31,481 bases of DNA from a virus: IMG/VR virus record IMGVR_UViG_3300042146_000023, positions 1 through 31,481 of that record; one strand, given 5' to 3'. The notes below the pieces were generated by a model. The model was given only the letters and a program-made list of their open reading frames with translations, was not told the origin of the DNA and did not search any database. This document shows positions 1,814 to 31,481 of the stretch, in pieces. Every line of letters starts with the position of its first letter. The stretch's first letter is position 1. The position numbers were made by a program, and so were the translations under genes.

Positions 1814-3184
1814 ATGACTGTCAATGCACCACCTGAGCTGATGATGGCGCTGAATAACCTGGCTGAACGGCAGATCGCCGCGTCTCGTCAGTTGGCGGCG
1901 TTTGGTACTGGCGCGCTGGATACGAAGCGTCCCCGTGCGTACTGCGAATACGGCTTCCCCGATAACCCTGGATTTGACGAGTTCTACCGCGTCTACAAGC
2001 GTCATGGCGTTGGTCATGGTGCGCTTATGCAGATCCTCAATAAGACATGGCAGACGAACCCGTGGATCATTGAGGGTGAAGACGAGTTCGACGAATCCCG
2101 CGATGAAACTCAGTGGGAAAAGGACGTCAAGCGGCTGTTCAAGAAGAAAGCTATCTGGTCTGCGATTAAGGAGACTGACAAGCGCAAGATGGTAGGCGGT
2201 TATGCGGGCCTGATTATTCAGGTTAAGGACTCGAAGCAGTGGAATGAGCCGCTGAAGAATGTCAGTGCGGCCGCTATCGTGAAGTTCATTCCTGCTTGGC
2301 GTGGGTCGCTTACCGTCTCAGTGTGGGACACCAATCAGGCGAGCCCGACTTACGGCGCTCCACTGATGTTCACCTACAACGAACACAGCGAAGTCTCGGG
2401 CAACTCTCCGCGTCAAGTCGAGATGCACCCGTCTCGCGTGATCGTGTTCGGCTCGATTACTGAGCCGGAGTCGGTATACGAGCCAATCCTGAACGCGCTG
2501 ATCAGCTTGGAGAAGGTTACGGGCGGGTCTGGAGAGGCATATATCAAGGCTGCCGCTCGTGCTATTCACGTCGGATTCAGCAAGGAGGCAGATTTGCAGA
2601 GCATTGCCCGCGCTCACGGAATGCAGCTATCAGAAATCGGGACGCTATACGACTCCGTGGTGGATGGTCTTAACCGGGGCATCGACTCCGCGATCATCAC
2701 GCAAGACGGCACAGTTACCGCGATCACGTCTGCTGTACCCGATCCTGTTGGTCCGTTTGAAGTCAACTTGCAAGAGGTAGGCGCAGGCATCGGCGTAGGC
2801 TCCACGATCATCGTAGGCCGTCAGACCGGCACTCTAGCAAGCAGCGAAGATATCAAGGCATTCAACCGGTTCGGCCAAGGTCGTCGCCTGAATGAAGTCG
2901 GTCCTAACTCTCGTCTAGTAGTTGAGTGGATGATGGATCACGGTGTCATTGAGCGCCGGGAAGACTTCGAAGTTATGTTTGATGAGCTTACTGAATCGAC
3001 TGATGCTGAGAAGTTGCTGAACGCTAAAACCATGTCGGAGATTAATGCGCAGATGCTCTCTTCGGGCCAGCCAGTGTTTAACGTTGACGAGATTCGAGTA
3101 TCAGCAGGCTACGAGGCCGATGTTGAGCTTGAGCCTCTTCCAGACATCGAGCCAGAGCCAGAAGATCCGGCAACCGTGCAATAA
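1814..3184 (+). CDS. Portal protein (DUF1073 / Acb1-like N-terminal family)
   Basis: The 456-residue product is a DUF1073-type portal, the family now labelled in Pfam as the Acb1-like N-terminal domain. The start of the family domain is clear around residues 40-110 (GFDEFYRVYKRHGVGHGALM, then NKTWQTNPWIIEG), followed by KMVGGYAGLIIQV near 125 and a GVGSTIIVGRQTGTLASSED stretch near 325 that matches the crown/stem part of this family. Length is normal for a portal. The portal forms the dodecameric ring at the capsid vertex, docks the terminase and passes DNA. The C-terminus is acidic and proline-rich (EPLPDIEPEPEDP). The minor head gene follows 39 bases downstream. The oddity is orientation: it is on the plus strand while terminase and DUF2213 are on the minus strand. 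There is no C-terminal Acb1 phosphodiesterase domain. Confidence 0.88.
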   Translation: MTVNAPPELMMALNNLAERQIAASRQLAAFGTGALDTKRPRAYCEYGFPDNPGFDEFYRVYKRHGVGHGALMQILNKTWQTNPWIIEGEDEFDESRDETQWEKDVKRLFKKKAIWSAIKETDKRKMVGGYAGLIIQVKDSKQWNEPLKNVSAAAIVKFIPAWRGSLTVSVWDTNQASPTYGAPLMFTYNEHSEVSGNSPRQVEMHPSRVIVFGSITEPESVYEPILNALISLEKVTGGSGEAYIKAAARAIHVGFSKEADLQSIARAHGMQLSEIGTLYDSVVDGLNRGIDSAIITQDGTVTAITSAVPDPVGPFEVNLQEVGAGIGVGSTIIVGRQTGTLASSEDIKAFNRFGQGRRLNEVGPNSRLVVEWMMDHGVIERREDFEVMFDELTESTDAEKLLNAKTMSEINAQMLSSGQPVFNVDEIRVSAGYEADVELEPLPDIEPEPEDPATVQ

Positions 3185-6042: not shown

Positions 6043-6062
6043 CTGTTTTCCGGAGAACAGTT
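6041..6062. repeat. Dispersed palindrome copy 1
   Basis: A 22-base near-perfect palindrome centred on TCCGGA (one mismatched pair) overlaps the last two bases of the large terminase stop codon and the -35 box of the next promoter. Core reads TGTTTTCCGGAGAACA. It is one of five related copies in the window. Confidence 0.75.
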
Positions 6063-7716
6063 ATTTTCGGAGCCTGGCTGGCAAGAACACGCCTCCTGAC
6101 GGCGCCTGTTCAATCAGCATCTCGGCCACAGCATCAAAGAGGGGGTCGAGTTGGTCGTCATGCTTGTGCGAGTCATCCGCGCTGAAGTCCGCCACCTCAG
6201 CCAGGAACGGCAGCACCCAGTCAGTCTTAGCCATCTGTTTGCCGGTGTGGTCAACGGTGCGCAGGATTGGATAGCCGTCTTCGTTCAAGATCGCAGGCAC
6301 GAACACGCGCCCATTCTTTACGTAGCTCTGAATGTCAAGGCAGCGCGAGACCTTGTTGTTGTCAGGGCCGCGTGGAATGGCCTTGATCGGGATGTGCTTC
6401 TTGTTGGTCAGCGTCTGAATCAATCCGGTACCGCTAGCCTTGTCTTCAATCGCCATATGCCTGATATGCCCGCCATCCCACGACGACCATTCGGCCCATG
6501 CGTTCTGCGCAGTCGTTATCAACTCGTCAGCGTCCCACTTCCCGCGCCGAACATCGATCAGGTAGGCGTTGTTATCGACACCAAGCCCCCACAGCTCAAA
6601 CACAGAATAGTCGTTCTGCTCGCCTTTCTTCTGCGCTGTATCCGCGTATACGGCTCGCCACTGCAAAGGAGGTAGCACTTCGTATCGTTGCAGCCATGCC
6701 GAGTCAAGAAGGCCGCCAGTAAGCGCTTGAGGACGCTGCATGTACTGAGACATGAACGTGTACTCATCTCGCTCCCATAGCGACATGAGGTCATTGACGT
6801 GTTCCATTTCCGGCCAATATGACCAGTATCGAACGCCGCCTTTTTCGACTGAGTCGGTATCCTTGACCGTATCCCAGCACATCTGCCGGTATGGTTCCGG
6901 CAGAGTGGCTATGTAGTCCTCTGTGACTAGCGCAGGGATCGCGATGTTCTTGAACTCTACACCCATACCGCCAGCCATCATGAAGCCGGTAGCGTCCATC
7001 GTATGGAGTCGCTGTTGGATTGAGACGATAGGCGTAGGGTGTTCTTTCGACTTGTCACCACGACGAGATCGGAACGTACCAGTTAGCCGCGCATTACTAG
7101 CGTCACGCTTCGTATTCGAAAGCATGTCGTCGGGCTTGTTAAGGTCATCAAAGAGTAGACATCCGGAGAATTCAGGCCCGAAGTAACCAGCACGACCACC
7201 TGTAATCTGTCCGCCTGCCGACTTGCTGATGGTCTGCCCAACGCTCCGGCCTTTGTCGTCGATCAGTTCCCACTCTTCGGCCTGGTTTACGCCAAATATC
7301 GAAGGCCATAGCTCTTGGTATTCCTTGGACGCAATAATGTCCCTCGTGCGCCTGGAGTTTCGACGCACGAGCGAGTCAGCGTAGGAAACGTTGAGATTGC
7401 GGAAGCGGCGCAGCTTCTTGGACTGCACCTTTGTATTTATGTAGGCCGGCAAGTGGATAGAGAAGAATTCCGTCTTCGTGCCGCCCGGTGGAATATTTAC
7501 GATCAGGTTGCCAGGCTTGAGCTTGCCGTTGATCAGGTCGTCAATAGACGCGGCCATCATTTTATGATGCCAGTTCACCAGCAGGCGATCACCCTGAAGC
7601 AGCTCAAACCAGATACGAGTGAAGTTAAGGAATGACTTCTCGGACTTCTGCTTGAGTATCAGCCGGTCCGCAAAATTCATATCCTCCCAATCGAGCAGTT
7701 TATTAGTCGAGGTCAT
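6061..7716 (-). CDS. terL: Terminase large subunit
   Basis: The 551-residue product has both terminase domains. The ATPase part shows IPPGGTKTEF (residues 75-84) in the Walker A place, a variant of the usual PPRHGKSE with the lysine kept at 81, CLLFDD (186-191) as Walker B, and SIQQRLH (232-238) as the coupling motif. The nuclease part shows VYAD with D359, IED with E424 and D425, and HKHDDQLDPLFDA near 518-529, the three acidic groups of the RNase H fold. It packages DNA into the prohead using ATP and cuts the concatemer. The start at 7716 overlaps the small terminase gene by 14 bases. Length is normal. Its 3' end carries one of the dispersed palindromes. Confidence 0.93.
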   Translation of the reverse strand: MTSTNKLLDWEDMNFADRLILKQKSEKSFLNFTRIWFELLQGDRLLVNWHHKMMAASIDDLINGKLKPGNLIVNIPPGGTKTEFFSIHLPAYINTKVQSKKLRRFRNLNVSYADSLVRRNSRRTRDIIASKEYQELWPSIFGVNQAEEWELIDDKGRSVGQTISKSAGGQITGGRAGYFGPEFSGCLLFDDLNKPDDMLSNTKRDASNARLTGTFRSRRGDKSKEHPTPIVSIQQRLHTMDATGFMMAGGMGVEFKNIAIPALVTEDYIATLPEPYRQMCWDTVKDTDSVEKGGVRYWSYWPEMEHVNDLMSLWERDEYTFMSQYMQRPQALTGGLLDSAWLQRYEVLPPLQWRAVYADTAQKKGEQNDYSVFELWGLGVDNNAYLIDVRRGKWDADELITTAQNAWAEWSSWDGGHIRHMAIEDKASGTGLIQTLTNKKHIPIKAIPRGPDNNKVSRCLDIQSYVKNGRVFVPAILNEDGYPILRTVDHTGKQMAKTDWVLPFLAEVADFSADDSHKHDDQLDPLFDAVAEMLIEQAPSGGVFLPARLRK

Positions 7717-25405: not shown

Positions 25406-25940
25406 GTCAGTTATCAAGGAAGTCGAGCAGGAGTACGGCGAGCCGTTTTGGGATGTTGTCGCGGCTTATGCGGCGGACGGAAACTCAATGACCATGACTG
25501 CCCGCATTCTTGGATACGTTGACGGGTCTACGCTTTGGTATCTGCTAAGACATCACAAGAAGGATATCCAGTTCCCCAAGATGGGTTACTGCAATGCCGT
25601 GCAGAACCCTGATCCGATGACCTCTGCCGATAAGCAGCGAATCAGCGACGTCAAGCGCTCACAGAACAGAAGTGCTGCCGGTGAATACGAGAGGAAGACC
25701 GGAGAGTCAGCAGAGACTGCAATCCGGCGACTAGCTCCAAACAATACGGTCGTTGATACCGCTAGAGCTATCGGGTGGAGTGCGGCATCAAGTATGCGAG
25801 CCTGGATGAAGATTCGCGGTATCGAGGTTGAATTTAAGAAGTACAACCCGATTCCGCCACGTACTAAATCAGGATGGGCAGAGCTTAATCTTGGCGGGCG
25901 GAAGAAGACAGGCCGCGCACAATCTCCTGCAAGCCTCTAA
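25398..25940 (+). CDS. HTH-containing phage protein, related to the previous gene
   Basis: The start is a GTG at 25398 (MARSVIKEVEQEYGEPFWDV) with AAAGGAAAG before it and an eight-base overlap with the previous gene. The 180-residue product shares with it the pattern E-G-P--DVV------NS-T-TA-I-G ending near the HTH (residues 27-55). The C-terminal part has a further helical repeat (NTVVDTARAIGWSAASSMRA) and a basic tail GGRKKTGRAQSPASL. The 3' end overlaps the Rz gene on the opposite strand by 56 bases. Role likely DNA binding; not recognised further. Confidence 0.75.
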   Translation: MARSVIKEVEQEYGEPFWDVVAAYAADGNSMTMTARILGYVDGSTLWYLLRHHKKDIQFPKMGYCNAVQNPDPMTSADKQRISDVKRSQNRSAAGEYERKTGESAETAIRRLAPNNTVVDTARAIGWSAASSMRAWMKIRGIEVEFKKYNPIPPRTKSGWAELNLGGRKKTGRAQSPASL

Positions 25941-26316
25941 TCTGCGCATCCTTCTTGACGATCAGTTCTCGATGGGCGAAATAAGCTCGTCGAGCGTCTT
26001 GGTTGAGGATGGCAATTTCTCCATGGTCCACGCCGGGATCACTGGAAGCTGGCACACAGGAGGCGCGGACTGACAGGCGCTTATTGCTAGCAAGCAAGTC
26101 AGCAGTAACAGCTTGTGCATCTGATAATTCCTTGCTGGCCTTTGCGTCAGCTTGAGTAACAACGATTGACTGCTCTAATGTAGCCTGCGCCTTATCCTGA
26201 GCCTGTTTCAGCTCAATCCTCGTCACGCTCGCATCATGCCAAAGGAAAACCACGAACGCGCCGCATGAGAGCCCTGACAGGAATCTCCACGGCAGCACGG
26301 TTAGCCAGATAGGCAT
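25885..26316 (-). CDS. Rz: i-spanin (Rz-like)
   Basis: The 143-residue product has one N-terminal membrane anchor (LTVLPWRFLSGLSCGAFVVF, about residues 5-24) and a long periplasmic coiled-coil with Lys/Gln/Glu repeats (ELKQAQDKAQATLEQSIVVT, DAKASKELSDAQAV). It would span from inner membrane through the periplasm and pair with the outer-membrane Rz1, whose gene lies inside this one in another frame. Its ATG shares a base with the lysozyme stop. In the minus-strand order lysozyme, Rz, Rz1 this is the standard Gram-negative lysis cassette. Confidence 0.88.
   Translation of the reverse strand: MPIWLTVLPWRFLSGLSCGAFVVFLWHDASVTRIELKQAQDKAQATLEQSIVVTQADAKASKELSDAQAVTADLLASNKRLSVRASCVPASSDPGVDHGEIAILNQDARRAYFAHRELIVKKDAQIRGLQEIVRGLSSSARQD
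25962..26120 (-). CDS. Rz1: o-spanin lipoprotein (Rz1-like), nested in Rz
   Basis: From the ATG at 26120 (AAGGA eight bases before) the frame gives MHKLLLLTCLLAISACQSAP, a lipoprotein signal with lipobox AISAC, and the mature chain from C16 with PPVCQLPVIPAWTMEK. At 52 residues it is a normal Rz1. It is fully inside the Rz gene in a shifted frame, as is typical. The lipid-anchored protein sits in the outer membrane and binds Rz to fuse the two membranes at lysis. Confidence 0.88.
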   Translation of the reverse strand: MHKLLLLTCLLAISACQSAPPVCQLPVIPAWTMEKLPSSTKTLDELISPIEN

Positions 26317-28387: not shown

Positions 28388-29275
28388 ATGAGCAAGCGAA
28401 TGAGCAGTAAAATTGAGTACACCTGCAAAGGTAAAGGTGGCCGGTATGAAATCCTTGGGTTGGCAACCGGTGCAGGGCTTACTCGTGGCGAGGATCGTTT
28501 GATTTACAAGGACGCTAGCACGGGCCGACTTTTCCTACGCACCGAAGCCGACTTCACTGAGCGTATGGAGCGCTTGATGGATGCCGCCCCTGTCGTCGAG
28601 CGCCAGCCGGTGGCACACAGCATGAAGTCTGTAGCTGAAGCCGTTGACGCATCCAGGTGCTATACGGTTCTGACTTCAAACCAATGCTTCTCTCTGGCAC
28701 AAAGCCTCAACAACCAAGCGATCCGTGTTGCCCCGCCCGAACTCGCCGAACTGCAAGCCACCATCGCACGGCTGACGGCGGAGAACGAGCGGCTGAAAGA
28801 TGAGACCACCAGCCAATATGCGAAACGTGTTGCTGTCGTTGAAGAAATCGAGCGGATGAAGGGTGGGCAGGGTGAGGCGGTGGCGTGGCTAAACGTTGCT
28901 ACAGGTCATGTCACAACCAGCTCAGTCGTGGTGATGGATTGGGACGACGAAAAGGAACAGGTTCAATCGCTCTACGCCTCGCAGCCCGCGCAGGTATCGG
29001 TGGTGCTGCCTGAGCGCTTGACGGCTGCCGAGCTTGAAGAACTGGAAGTCATTGAGGTGCTGCTTCACGGGCAAGGGCTTTCAAATCTTGCAGGTACCAT
29101 GGCTGCCGCTCGCCAGTTTATCGACGAAATCGTCTGTCTTGATGCTCCGACACGGACATTTCGTCTTCCTGAACGGAAGCCGATAGAGGCTCTGAGTTTC
29201 AACTGGACGACCGCAGACGTCGAAAACACAGGATGGAACGCCTGCCTCGACAAGGTCAAGGAGCTGAATCAATGA
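28388..29275 (+). CDS. Modular Ea22/ead-like accessory protein, 295 aa
   Basis: The product has several distinct parts: a basic N-terminus (MSKRMSSKIEYTCKGKGGRY) with a small domain giving LGLATGAGLTRGEDRLIYKD, a central coiled coil (ELAELQATIARLTAENERLK, about residues 117-136), a GGQGEAVAWLNVATGHVTTS block that looks like a small beta domain, and a helical C-terminus with PERLTAAELEELEVIEVLLH. Phages mix such modules freely. Function not known. The 3' end overlaps the next gene by ATGA. The base composition is more GC-rich than neighbours, which hints at separate origin. Confidence 0.74.
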   Translation: MSKRMSSKIEYTCKGKGGRYEILGLATGAGLTRGEDRLIYKDASTGRLFLRTEADFTERMERLMDAAPVVERQPVAHSMKSVAEAVDASRCYTVLTSNQCFSLAQSLNNQAIRVAPPELAELQATIARLTAENERLKDETTSQYAKRVAVVEEIERMKGGQGEAVAWLNVATGHVTTSSVVVMDWDDEKEQVQSLYASQPAQVSVVLPERLTAAELEELEVIEVLLHGQGLSNLAGTMAAARQFIDEIVCLDAPTRTFRLPERKPIEALSFNWTTADVENTGWNACLDKVKELNQ

Positions 29276-29505
29276 GATCTGTCTACGGTAAGGAGTGCGG
29301 GCTGCATCCAGAGTTAGCGGGTCGTCGCTACTTGCCTAATCTTGCCTGCATCAAGTGTCATAGCATTCAGAACAAGGATCGTCACGCAGCGCGCAAGTTA
29401 GCGCTAAACGAACTAATCGCAGCAGCTATTGAGGCGCCACAAACGCCTAGATTGACTGCTGCACTGAAAGCAATGGGTAAATCAGCATGCAGCATAAAGC
29501 CTTAA
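29272..29505 (+). CDS. Small zinc-ribbon-like phage protein
   Basis: The ATG at 29272 (MRSVYGKECGLHPELAGRRY) overlaps the upstream TGA. The 77-residue product has C9...H12 and LACIKCHSIQNKDRH (C25, C28 region), a Cys/His set typical of small phage zinc-ribbon proteins, then a helical alanine-rich tail (ALNELIAAAIEAPQTPRLTA). It may bind nucleic acid. Its stop lies inside the next gene. Confidence 0.7.
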   Translation: MRSVYGKECGLHPELAGRRYLPNLACIKCHSIQNKDRHAARKLALNELIAAAIEAPQTPRLTAALKAMGKSACSIKP

Positions 29506-29672
29506 GCAACCGTTATTACCTAGAAGGGAAAGTTGCCTATCTGGAGGGAAGAAATGACTGTCCATACCAAAATGGAGAACAAAAAAACTACTGGCTCGCA
29601 GGAATTGTTGAGATGCGCGAAGAGCTTAGAGTTCTCAGAGAAAGTTTGCAGTTGCAAGCACGAGCTGAGTGA
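29487..29672 (+). CDS. Rmf/CrpP-like protein (ribosome modulation factor family)
   Basis: The 61-residue product starts MQHKALSNRYYLEGKVAYLE and continues GRNDCPYQNGEQKNYWLAGI at residues 21-40. The pattern G-R---CPY------WL-G matches ribosome modulation factor and the related CrpP/Rmf fold proteins. Rmf dimerises 70S ribosomes in stationary bacteria. In phages such proteins are known by homology but their role is unsettled. The start overlaps the previous gene's end by 19 bases and has only a weak ribosome site. The next gene starts 67 bases inside it in another frame. Confidence 0.72.
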   Translation: MQHKALSNRYYLEGKVAYLEGRNDCPYQNGEQKNYWLAGIVEMREELRVLRESLQLQARAE

Positions 29673-29760
29673 TACAGGAGCAATTTTTCTACGCAGTTAC
29701 GGTGTTCTGTATTGCAACGAGTGTTCCGGCCTTCAATCCATTAAGCACGAGATCAGATAA
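29554..29760 (+). CDS. Small zinc-ribbon protein overlapping the Rmf-like gene
   Basis: The ATG at 29554 has GGAGGG with a five-base spacer, a very good site. The 68-residue product (MTVHTKMENKKTTGSQELLR...) contains KVCSCKHELSDTGAIFLRSY and GVLYCNECSGLQS, so CxC and CxxC could bind zinc. It overlaps the Rmf-like gene by 119 bases in another frame. Both frames show family-like patterns, so both may be coding. It shares TAATG with the next gene. Confidence 0.68.
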   Translation: MTVHTKMENKKTTGSQELLRCAKSLEFSEKVCSCKHELSDTGAIFLRSYGVLYCNECSGLQSIKHEIR

Positions 29761-29954
29761 TGAGCCAACGAATCAAACTGAAATTCTTCCCGTTTCCTGA
29801 CATGGTTTCGGATCTTGTGGTTAACTTGGCAGAGTCTGGATTCAATATCGAGATGAGTCCGTGCGAAGGTGGAGACTTTAGCGTGTTGATTGCTGAGCGT
29901 TGTTATGAAGGGGAAGAGCCGATGGTGCTGCCGACTGGACCAACTATCCACTAA
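29760..29954 (+). CDS. Small phage protein, unknown function
   Basis: The 64-residue product (MSQRIKLKFFPFPDMVSDLV...) looks like a small alpha/beta domain: KLKFFPFPDMVSDLVVNLAE, then GFNIEMSPCEGGDFSVLIAE. It is the last gene of the cluster and ends just before the bidirectional terminator. No family recognised. Confidence 0.68.
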   Translation: MSQRIKLKFFPFPDMVSDLVVNLAESGFNIEMSPCEGGDFSVLIAERCYEGEEPMVLPTGPTIH

Positions 29955-29957
29955 AAG

Positions 29958-29982
29958 AAACCCCGCTTATTAGGCGGGGTTT
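29958..29982. terminator. Bidirectional intrinsic terminator
   Basis: AACCCCGC (29959-29966) pairs with GCGGGGTT (29974-29981) around a seven-base loop, with T-tracts on both strands. It separates the plus-strand cluster from the convergent tail-spike gene. Confidence 0.92.
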
Positions 29983-29990
29983 TTGTTTAT

Positions 29991-31481
29991 CTAGATGTTG
30001 CCGCTAATGGACCTCGTACCTGTGAAGGTGTCGTTGACCGTACCAGAGATCTGGTTGCACATAAGCGTTAGCTTGCCGTCACCGCCTGTCAGAGTTACGT
30101 TGCCTATAATCCGGTTGCTAGTGGTAATAGTATCTCCACGGTTAATAATCAAATTGCCAAGAAGGTGACTAGAGTTCATAGACGCCGTATCCACTTGGTC
30201 GAAAGTCATTGTCGCGGCAATAGTGCAGCCGGTGATCTGCAAGTCCTCAAGAGCTGCACCGGATCCGCCGATGAACTGGGACGCGATATCGCTCGTGATG
30301 GTGCATCCGATAAATTTTACCCGTTGCAGGCGTGGCGTCGTGGCGTCGATACCGAGAACGTAAGTTCCCCAGCCTTCCATGTGGCAACTGGTGAACGTAA
30401 AAATACCGTTCGGGTTGTTGTAGTTGACAATGCGCATGACCATGTTAGCCAATGCGCCTGACTGGTTGAACTGGCAGGCTGTGAAGTCAACAGTGTCAAC
30501 CTGAATACCGCCAGAACCATCGACAAGTACGTACCCGTCTGAGATAAGGTCAATGCCGCCATTTCGCCCGAACCGGCAGTTGTTAAAGCGCGGCTCTACA
30601 CACTGCGAGATCTTTAAGTGGTACCCCGTGCACATCCAGGTATTCAGGCGGCTAAACCAGGGGTTCAACTGTCCGTTTACGTGTACGCAGATGCCGTGGC
30701 GATAAACTGCGCAGTCTTCAAAAATCTGCTGATCCACGCCAGAGCAGATCAGCCCGCGAACACTGCTGGCCCAAACGCCAGTTCTCCGAGTGATCACAAC
30801 GTTTTTGTATTGGCCGCTGAAAGTCGTGTCGCCAACTCGTGCATGGACCACGCCGTCAAGGGTCAACTCTCCGACAATCGCGCACTTAGCTTCGTCGGTG
30901 GAGGTTGCGCGAGACTGGAACTCTACGTTGCTGCCGCCGTTCCAAAAAATAGTAGCGGAGGTGTAATAGAGACCGAGCGGGTAGAAAACCGTCACGCCAC
31001 GTGGGGTTAGGTCGTGCGCCCGCTGCAATGCGATAGCGTCATCCGTGCCGGTGTTCGAAACCTTTGTGTAGTCGCCTTTTGCGCCGGCTTGCTTTACCGT
31101 TAACTTGTCCTCGTAAACAATCTTGCGTCGTACGCCGCCAGTGCTGACAAGGGTAGTGAAGCTGTTATCGGCCGAAATCGTATCCGACAGGTCGATACGG
31201 TACATAGCACCGCCGTCTGCCGACCCCGCGTAGTAACCGGTAGTCGCGATGATCCCTTTGAAGCTTGCAGGAACTAGCCGTGCCGCCGCGATAGAGTCAA
31301 CAATCAAGAATTCAGACTTGTTTTTGAGCAGTTCAAGCTGAACGGTTGTCGTATTTCCGTCTTCGTCCACTGCGCCAATAAGCGTAGCGCCAGTCGGTTG
31401 TCCGAGGTCTTGGCGAAGAACGAAGTCGCCCCGATTCACGAAATTAGGCGCGTCAGTGGTCCAGTTGTTCACGGTGGTGTA
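29991..31481 (-). CDS. Tail spike/fibre with beta-helix fold (N-terminus beyond window)
   Basis: The frame stays open to the window edge, so the N-terminus is missing; the first in-window start-like codon is GTG at 31472. The visible part (about 496 residues) has a phage-specific head-binding type start (WTTDAPNFVNRGDFVLRQDL), a linker, then a pectate-lyase-like beta-helix beginning near LTVKQAGAKGDYTKVSNTGT and DDAIALQRAHD, the usual entry motif of tail spike beta-helices, followed by many Asn/Gly/Val turns (FTACQFNQSG, FTSCHMEGWG, FIGCTITSD, LQITGCTIAA). Such trimers bind and often cut surface polysaccharide of the host. I cannot see the catalytic residues with certainty. The final repeats (GNLIINRGD, GNVTLTGGDGK) look like a capping end. 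Confidence 0.85.
   Translation of the reverse strand, partial: YTTVNNWTTDAPNFVNRGDFVLRQDLGQPTGATLIGAVDEDGNTTTVQLELLKNKSEFLIVDSIAAARLVPASFKGIIATTGYYAGSADGGAMYRIDLSDTISADNSFTTLVSTGGVRRKIVYEDKLTVKQAGAKGDYTKVSNTGTDDAIALQRAHDLTPRGVTVFYPLGLYYTSATIFWNGGSNVEFQSRATSTDEAKCAIVGELTLDGVVHARVGDTTFSGQYKNVVITRRTGVWASSVRGLICSGVDQQIFEDCAVYRHGICVHVNGQLNPWFSRLNTWMCTGYHLKISQCVEPRFNNCRFGRNGGIDLISDGYVLVDGSGGIQVDTVDFTACQFNQSGALANMVMRIVNYNNPNGIFTFTSCHMEGWGTYVLGIDATTPRLQRVKFIGCTITSDIASQFIGGSGAALEDLQITGCTIAATMTFDQVDTASMNSSHLLGNLIINRGDTITTSNRIIGNVTLTGGDGKLTLMCNQISGTVNDTFTGTRSISGNI

Follow-up and report, generated by a model that had tools for sequence, protein, structure and literature searches.

Do two genes of a tailed phage share 119 bases of one strand, and are both of their proteins constrained by it? 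The question was raised by the initial annotation of an IMG/VR virus record of 31,481 bases, the whole of which is called the window here. An Rmf-like frame (ORF1) and a zinc-ribbon frame (ORF2) had been described as sharing these bases in different frames, and we found both frames open at the coordinates given, with ORF2 in the +1 frame (Table 1). The start of ORF2 lies 67 bases 3′ of the ORF1 ATG and the frame extends 88 bases beyond the ORF1 stop codon. The strong ribosome site claimed for ORF2 was confirmed, as GGAGGG is spaced by 5 bases from the ATG at 29554 and GGAG recurs in 38/38 rows of the alignment of relatives. Likewise present are the CPY and WL motifs ascribed to ORF1 (C25-P26-Y27 and W36-L37), all of them within the overlap. 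The statement that most of the cysteine motifs of ORF2 follow the overlap was mistaken, because C32, C34 (29647-29655), H36 and C21 are inside it and only the CxxC pair, C54 and C57, comes after it.

Table 1. Coordinates of the features discussed, in the window unless another record is named.
Feature	Coordinates	Strand	Remarks
Upstream gene	28388-29275	+	
Gene before ORF1	29272-29505	+	
ORF1	29487-29672	+	61 aa, RMF-like protein
Shine-Dalgarno-like GGAGGG of ORF2	29543-29548	+	within ORF1 codons 19-21
ORF2	29554-29760	+	68 aa, putative zinc-ribbon protein, +1 frame of ORF1
ORF1/ORF2 overlap	29554-29672	+	119 bases
Overlap, first part (ORF2 codons 1-17)	29554-29604	+	start codon and open frame kept
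Overlap, second part (ORF2 codons 18-37)	29605-29664	+	estimated constraint on both proteins
ORF2 C32, C34, H36 (CxCxH)	29647-29661	+	inside overlap, invariant in 38/38 rows
Exchangeable ORF2 tail	29664-29760	+	holds ORF1 stop codon; swapped among related phages
ORF2 C54-x-x-C57	29713-29724	+	3′ of overlap, invariant in 38/38 rows
ORF3	29760-29954	+	64 aa, no family; start overlaps ORF2 stop by 1 base (TAATG)
Terminator-like hairpin and T run	29956-29984	+	closes gene group
Convergent gene	29991-31472		opposite to ORF1 group
ORF2 relative, L001 (DDSR119)	~2926-3129		unannotated frame
ORF2 relative, L002 (Torfinnsbu)	~2941-3114		unannotated frame

Gene neighbourhood

The two frames belong to a tight plus-strand group that runs from the gene at 28388-29275 through ORF3 with successive start/stop overlaps of 4, 19, 119 and 1 bases. 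ORF3 gave nothing convincing in PHROGs and no hit in PADLOC, and its relative was located 3′ of ORF2 in 37/37 contigs printed, either directly or after an insertion of ~100-400 bases. The hairpin at the end of the group is weak by itself because 3 such sites were present in the scanned region as against 2.8 expected from shuffles. On the basis of position and sequence we named the convergent gene a putative tail fibre gene and the one at 25885-26316 a putative spanin gene. The lysozyme gene upstream on the minus strand matched an NCBIfam endolysin at E 3.5e-30. The terminase large subunit is encoded at 6061-7716 (minus strand), its best phage match being Pectobacterium phage ZF40 with 63% identity.

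An RMF-like protein in ORF1

RMF silences ribosomes through its binding to the 30S subunit, close to the 3′ end of the 16S rRNA. The Rmf-like reading of ORF1 gained support from Pfam PF04957 (RMF), which was matched at E 8.7e-5 with 22.9 bits, under the curated cut-off of 27.9, and from RMF structures that ranked 1-3 in a structural comparison. The NCBIfam models NF011162 (RMF; E 3.4e-5, 23.6 bits, under the cut-off of 40) and NF041886 (Rmf/CrpP; E 0.003, 17.1 bits, under the cut-off of 28) were also matched, and PF04957 matched 16 of the 19 ORF1 members scanned (E up to 1). Searches of PHROGs gave nothing convincing for ORF1 and PADLOC gave none. Over the 36 distinct rows of the alignment the motifs are well kept, with P26 in 36, Y27 in 35, L37 in 34, and C25 and W36 in 31 each.

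A profile of ORF1 placed the RMF chains 2jrm, 6h4n and 4v8g first among PDB entries, though weakly (E 0.04-0.17). The predicted model (pLDDT 90.8) consists of a helix at residues 9-20, the CPY loop and a long helix at residues 31-60. Foldseek with this model did not list RMF among its matches up to E 10, and RMF was recovered only in a second structural comparison (VIA list), where it filled rows 1-3 as 9iot (Z 5.2), 2jrm (5.1) and 6h4n (4.7), the next row having a Z of 3.4. The corresponding rmsd values were 4.2, 3.9 and 4.5 across 49-51 residues, and a Z of about 5 is middling. RMF aligned to the model as far as residue 51 (57 for 2jrm). ORF1 thus resembles the RMF of these three families in being a small two-helix protein with a CPY loop and a W-L motif, but differs in a second helix predicted up to residue 60 and in a tail that is shared with another gene. 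We consider it RMF-like in sequence and predicted fold rather than a member of the family, and its product may bind the ribosome. RMF-domain proteins were reported for phage Milano in the available part of an earlier account (PMC6588377), and RMF as such therefore has a precedent among phages.

A putative zinc-ribbon protein in ORF2 and its relatives

The residues C32, C34, H36, C54 and C57 of ORF2 are invariant in 38/38 rows, and with them the two pairs of conserved Cys/His metal ligands by which we recognised a zinc ribbon are present. The zinc-ribbon reading is therefore supported by the ligands, whereas the predicted structure (pLDDT 46.3) was unusable for judging the fold. Pfam gave weak matches only (Trm112p 0.16); searches of Pfam, PHROGs and NCBIfam assigned no family, no solved relative was found and PADLOC gave none. 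Judged by its ligands, the protein probably binds zinc.

The C-terminal half of ORF2 matched frames of the Pseudomonas phages DDSR119 and Torfinnsbu (E 3e-2 and 2e-3) which carry no gene annotation. Common to all are C32, H36, F45, S48, G50, C54, C57, Q61 and I63, and here, too, an endolysin gene and a tail gene on the minus strand lie close by. They differ in having H at position 34 and not C, an exchange that a metal ligand would allow. These frames apparently start at TTG or GTG, in an overlap of ~4 bases with the end of the gene before them (TTGA/GTGA), and that gene is not RMF-like by eye. The putative metal-binding domain is thus present there without the RMF-like overlap, which suggests, from two records, that the overlap is the derived state. 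In Torfinnsbu, minus-strand CDSs are annotated across the gene directly 5′ of the ORF2 relative.

Conservation of both frames among relatives

Single-sequence scans of IMG/VR contigs located 27 loci with ORF1 and 23 with ORF2, and alignment scans raised these numbers to 37 and 36, respectively; the alignments A1 and A2 comprised 19 and 20 chosen sequences. The set analysed consisted of the window and the 37 contigs with ORF1, giving 38 rows, and after removal of duplicates ahead of the rate tests there were 36 distinct rows over 274 bases and 35 over 177 bases. One contig which the ORF2 scan had left unlisted (L082) carries ORF2 too.

The complete ORF1/ORF2 pair was readable in 38/38 rows with both frames open, while the third frame contained a stop in 38/38. 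ORF2 has 68 codons and the same start position in every row, starting with ATG in 31 and GTG in 7. The overlap measures 116 bases in 3 rows, 119 in 10, 122 in 16, 140 in 3 and 167 in 6. We checked whether only one frame is conserved among the relatives; both are, and the claim of an overlapping pair stands. A nucleotide search with 791 bases around the overlap against 50,697 phage records gave no match, as did tblastn in phages with the ORF1 of the window and with the most divergent ORF1 (L086). The profile search of genome contigs produced 11 pattern matches for ORF2 and 72 for the ORF1 alignment, with 0 confirmed. In the contig L016 (4090-4750) the gene preceding ORF1 is ~660 bases off and the overlap is intact; the 5′ end of ORF1 is replaced there, with different first residues and a start that we guessed as GTG.

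Selection in the two frames

Selection was estimated on the 36 distinct sequences by a script of our own, a simplified version of the OLGenie idea as given in the available part of its description (PMC7531306) and not the OLGenie program. ORF1 is constrained both 5′ of the overlap (dN/dS 0.20, 0.08-0.42, codons 7-22) and within it (dNN/dSN 0.35, CI 0.20-0.63), with an NN/SN of 0.15 over codons 41-52. For ORF2 over the entire overlap dNN/dNS was 1.05 (0.66-1.71), which is not significant, so the case for this frame rests on the second part of the overlap. There, over codons 18-37, the ratio was 0.44 (CI 0.31-0.69), as compared with 1.98 (CI 1.18-3.78) over codons 2-17, which resemble the untranslated control upstream (the ORF2 frame 5′ of its own start, 1.75, 0.74-5.3); the split at codon 17/18 was picked after the alignment had been seen, so the two parts are no blind test. 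Finer windows gave 3.4 (codons 2-10), 1.5 (11-17), 0.53 (18-30) and 0.24 (31-37), and together with the split they place the constraint on ORF2 from about codon 18 onward. The third-frame control stood at 1.37 overall, 1.56 in the first part and 1.06 in the second. Change that is synonymous in ORF1 and nonsynonymous in ORF2 stood at 1.04 in the first part and dropped to 0.42 in the second, and ORF2 codons 41-68, which are (almost) outside the overlap, had a single-frame dN/dS of 0.10.

Both frames are conserved and both are constrained. Dual coding had been expected to constrain both proteins, and this was borne out for ORF1 along the whole overlap and for ORF2 over codons 18-37, but no constraint was detected on ORF2 codons 2-17. 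By their anatomy all 119 bases are dual-coding, and the sequence comparisons place double protein constraint in the last ~60 only.

The start site of ORF2 and simulated evolution

The bases of ORF1 that underlie the start site of ORF2 are fixed. Codon 19 (L19) ends in G and E20 is encoded by GAG in 36/36 distinct rows, and codon 23 is AAT, AGT or CAT, encoding N, S or H, with T as the third base in 36/36, by which ATG or GTG is retained in the ORF2 frame. These fixed bases of codons 19, 20 and 23 are exactly those that form the GGAG and ATG/GTG of ORF2. Further downstream, ORF2 codons 2-37 offer no start codon common to all rows; the best is TTG at codon 18 in 23/36 distinct rows, and three contigs (L071, L072 and L081) have no ATG, GTG or TTG in this stretch.

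Evolution was simulated on the observed tree with the residues of one frame constrained, at scales 1.5 and 3 with 300 replicates each. When ORF1 alone was constrained, the mean number of leaves (out of 36) with ORF2 open was 15.2 at scale 1.5 and 10.9 at scale 3, and 0/600 replicates had it open in every leaf, as against 36/36 observed. GGAG was kept in all rows in 0/600 replicates and the start codon in 8/300 (scale 1.5) and 0/300 (scale 3). The observed identity of ORF2 codons 18-37 was 0.755 as against 0.547 and 0.423 simulated, whereas that of codons 2-17 (0.417 against 0.519 and 0.398) showed no clear excess. With ORF2 alone constrained, the mean number of leaves with ORF1 open was 7.7 and 3.5 out of 36 and no replicate reached 36, and ORF1 is open in 36/36 distinct rows.

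Recombination breaks the assumption of a single tree, and because the tails recombine the ORF1-only simulation was redone on a tree of bases 0-176 (35 distinct rows), which yielded the same result. At scales 1, 2 and 3 all rows were open in 3, 0 and 0 of 300 replicates, the start was kept in all rows in 31, 11 and 0, GGAG in 1, 0 and 0, and CxCxH in 0, 0 and 0. Scale 3 best approached the divergence of the real sequences (0.246 against an observed 0.269) and scale 1 was far too slow (0.135); at slow simulated rates it is not unusual for the start codon by itself to be kept. The kept start site strongly suggests that ORF2 is translated from 29554.

The joint between the modules and exchange of tails

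The RMF-like fold ends at about residue 51 of ORF1 (base 29639) and the cysteine region of ORF2 begins at codon 32 (29647). Among the sequences, 26 pairs have bodies (ORF1 bases 0-176) at least 95% identical, and in these the next 94 bases of ORF2 are less than 75% identical in 13 pairs, at least 90% in 9 and between these values in 4. Conversely, tails at least 95% identical are found in 25 pairs, 10 of which have bodies less than 85% identical. The breakpoint, located in five pairs in 20-base steps, falls at about base 177-180 of ORF1 (29664), directly after CxCxHE. The joint, as judged from these alignments, coincides with a recombination boundary. As the tail carries its own ORF1 stop, the end of ORF1 varies with the ORF2 allele and reads ARAE, ARDQR or an extension to 77 residues in total; with tails exchanged and the ends of ORF1 altered, both proteins are mosaics. 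Tail swaps between near-identical phages are exemplified by L052/L058, L054/L059, L062/L063 and the window with L053.

Explanations weighed

We favour, with a probability of about 0.85, the view that two real genes of a tailed phage overlap on the same strand and are started independently. Ribosomes would initiate at the ORF1 ATG to make a 61-residue RMF-like two-helix protein, and separately at the ORF2 ATG/GTG, guided by the GGAG within ORF1 codons 19-21, to make 68 residues with a CxCxH...CxxC metal site. Both frames are probably translated. As the functional domains nearly abut, the overlap would pair the polar, little-constrained leader of ORF2 with the second half of the RMF-like domain, and the short tail of ORF1 with the beginning of the metal-binding domain of ORF2. 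The overlap most likely arose from the RMF-like gene and a formerly separate zinc-ribbon gene through loss of the intervening space, the first being extended to a new stop and the second acquiring a start within the first.

The onset of constraint near ORF2 codon 18 would also be expected if ribosomes translating ORF1 entered the ORF2 frame there by a +1 frameshift, with codons 18-68 made as part of an RMF-like/zinc-ribbon fusion beside the short ORF1 protein. This is quite unlikely, since the start codon and GGAG persist at the ORF2 start in 38/38 rows despite residue changes in ORF1, and simulations kept GGAG in all rows in only 0/600 and 1/900 replicates. Moreover, ORF1 beyond the entry point is itself constrained (codons 41-52), and a reading of the codon tables by eye showed no motif around ORF1 codons 38-48 that is both invariant and slippery-looking. 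The unconstrained codons 2-17 and the TTG at codon 18 would equally agree with two real genes of which ORF2 starts farther downstream, so that the true overlap is ~60 bases or less, and a mispredicted start is the error most often met with in long overlaps on one strand. Yet that TTG is absent in 13/36 rows, three rows lack any later start, and codon 1 is the only start common to all and is kept with its GGAG, which makes such a start highly improbable.

The chances that only one frame is a gene are close to nil on either side. A sole ORF1, with ORF2 open through chance and composition, would explain why the first 17 codons of ORF2 are unconstrained, but not a frame that runs 88 bases past the ORF1 stop under strong constraint over codons 41-68, with an invariant CxCxH...CxxC, homologues elsewhere and synonymous change of ORF1 depressed in the second part of the overlap. 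A sole ORF2, with ORF1 a chance or mispredicted frame, would fit the weak ribosome site of ORF1 in the window and the finding of no close ORF1 relative outside the phage group; it conflicts with the constraint on ORF1 codons 7-22, with a frame open in every row where simulation kept only a few, and with the RMF match in sequence and predicted fold. The chance open frame, the single-gene readings and the downstream start were rejected on simulations, dN/dS and start-site retention.

Besides the favoured pair of independently started genes, we entertain as doubtful the idea that the overlap serves as a joint in both regulation and recombination. The RMF-like factor, whose core codons contain the ribosome site of ORF2, would block Shine-Dalgarno pairing and so limit initiation of ORF2, and the ~60 bases under double constraint would anchor the exchange of tails that re-cuts the RMF-like C terminus.

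Overlapping genes in phages

According to the available part of the survey by Palleja and co-workers (PMC2478687), 338 prokaryote genomes held no real same-strand overlap of at least 60 bp, the longest real one being the 56 bp of holD/rimI. The latter is likewise a same-strand terminal overlap conserved among relatives, but it reaches up to 56 bp between cellular genes as against 116-167 bases in a phage. Viral same-strand +1 overlaps, which are alike in arrangement and frame, have a median of 14 nt (quartiles 8-26) in the accessible portion of PMC8903798. Small phages, PhiX174 among them, are classical cases of long dual coding, as stated in what is available of PMC8227390, and the phenomenon is therefore known, with ORF1/ORF2 as a new case of unusual length and good support. 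We found no description of the pair in the titles and abstracts retrieved from an open-access library.

An overlap of 116-167 bases has been kept over 38 phage sequences with selection on both frames, and this makes it a usable natural case of two small proteins sharing DNA. Within the shared stretch, a leader that one of the frames leaves free is followed by a joint that both frames bind. The pair also brings into phage gene lists a divergent RMF-like protein and a zinc-ribbon-like family that had no annotation.
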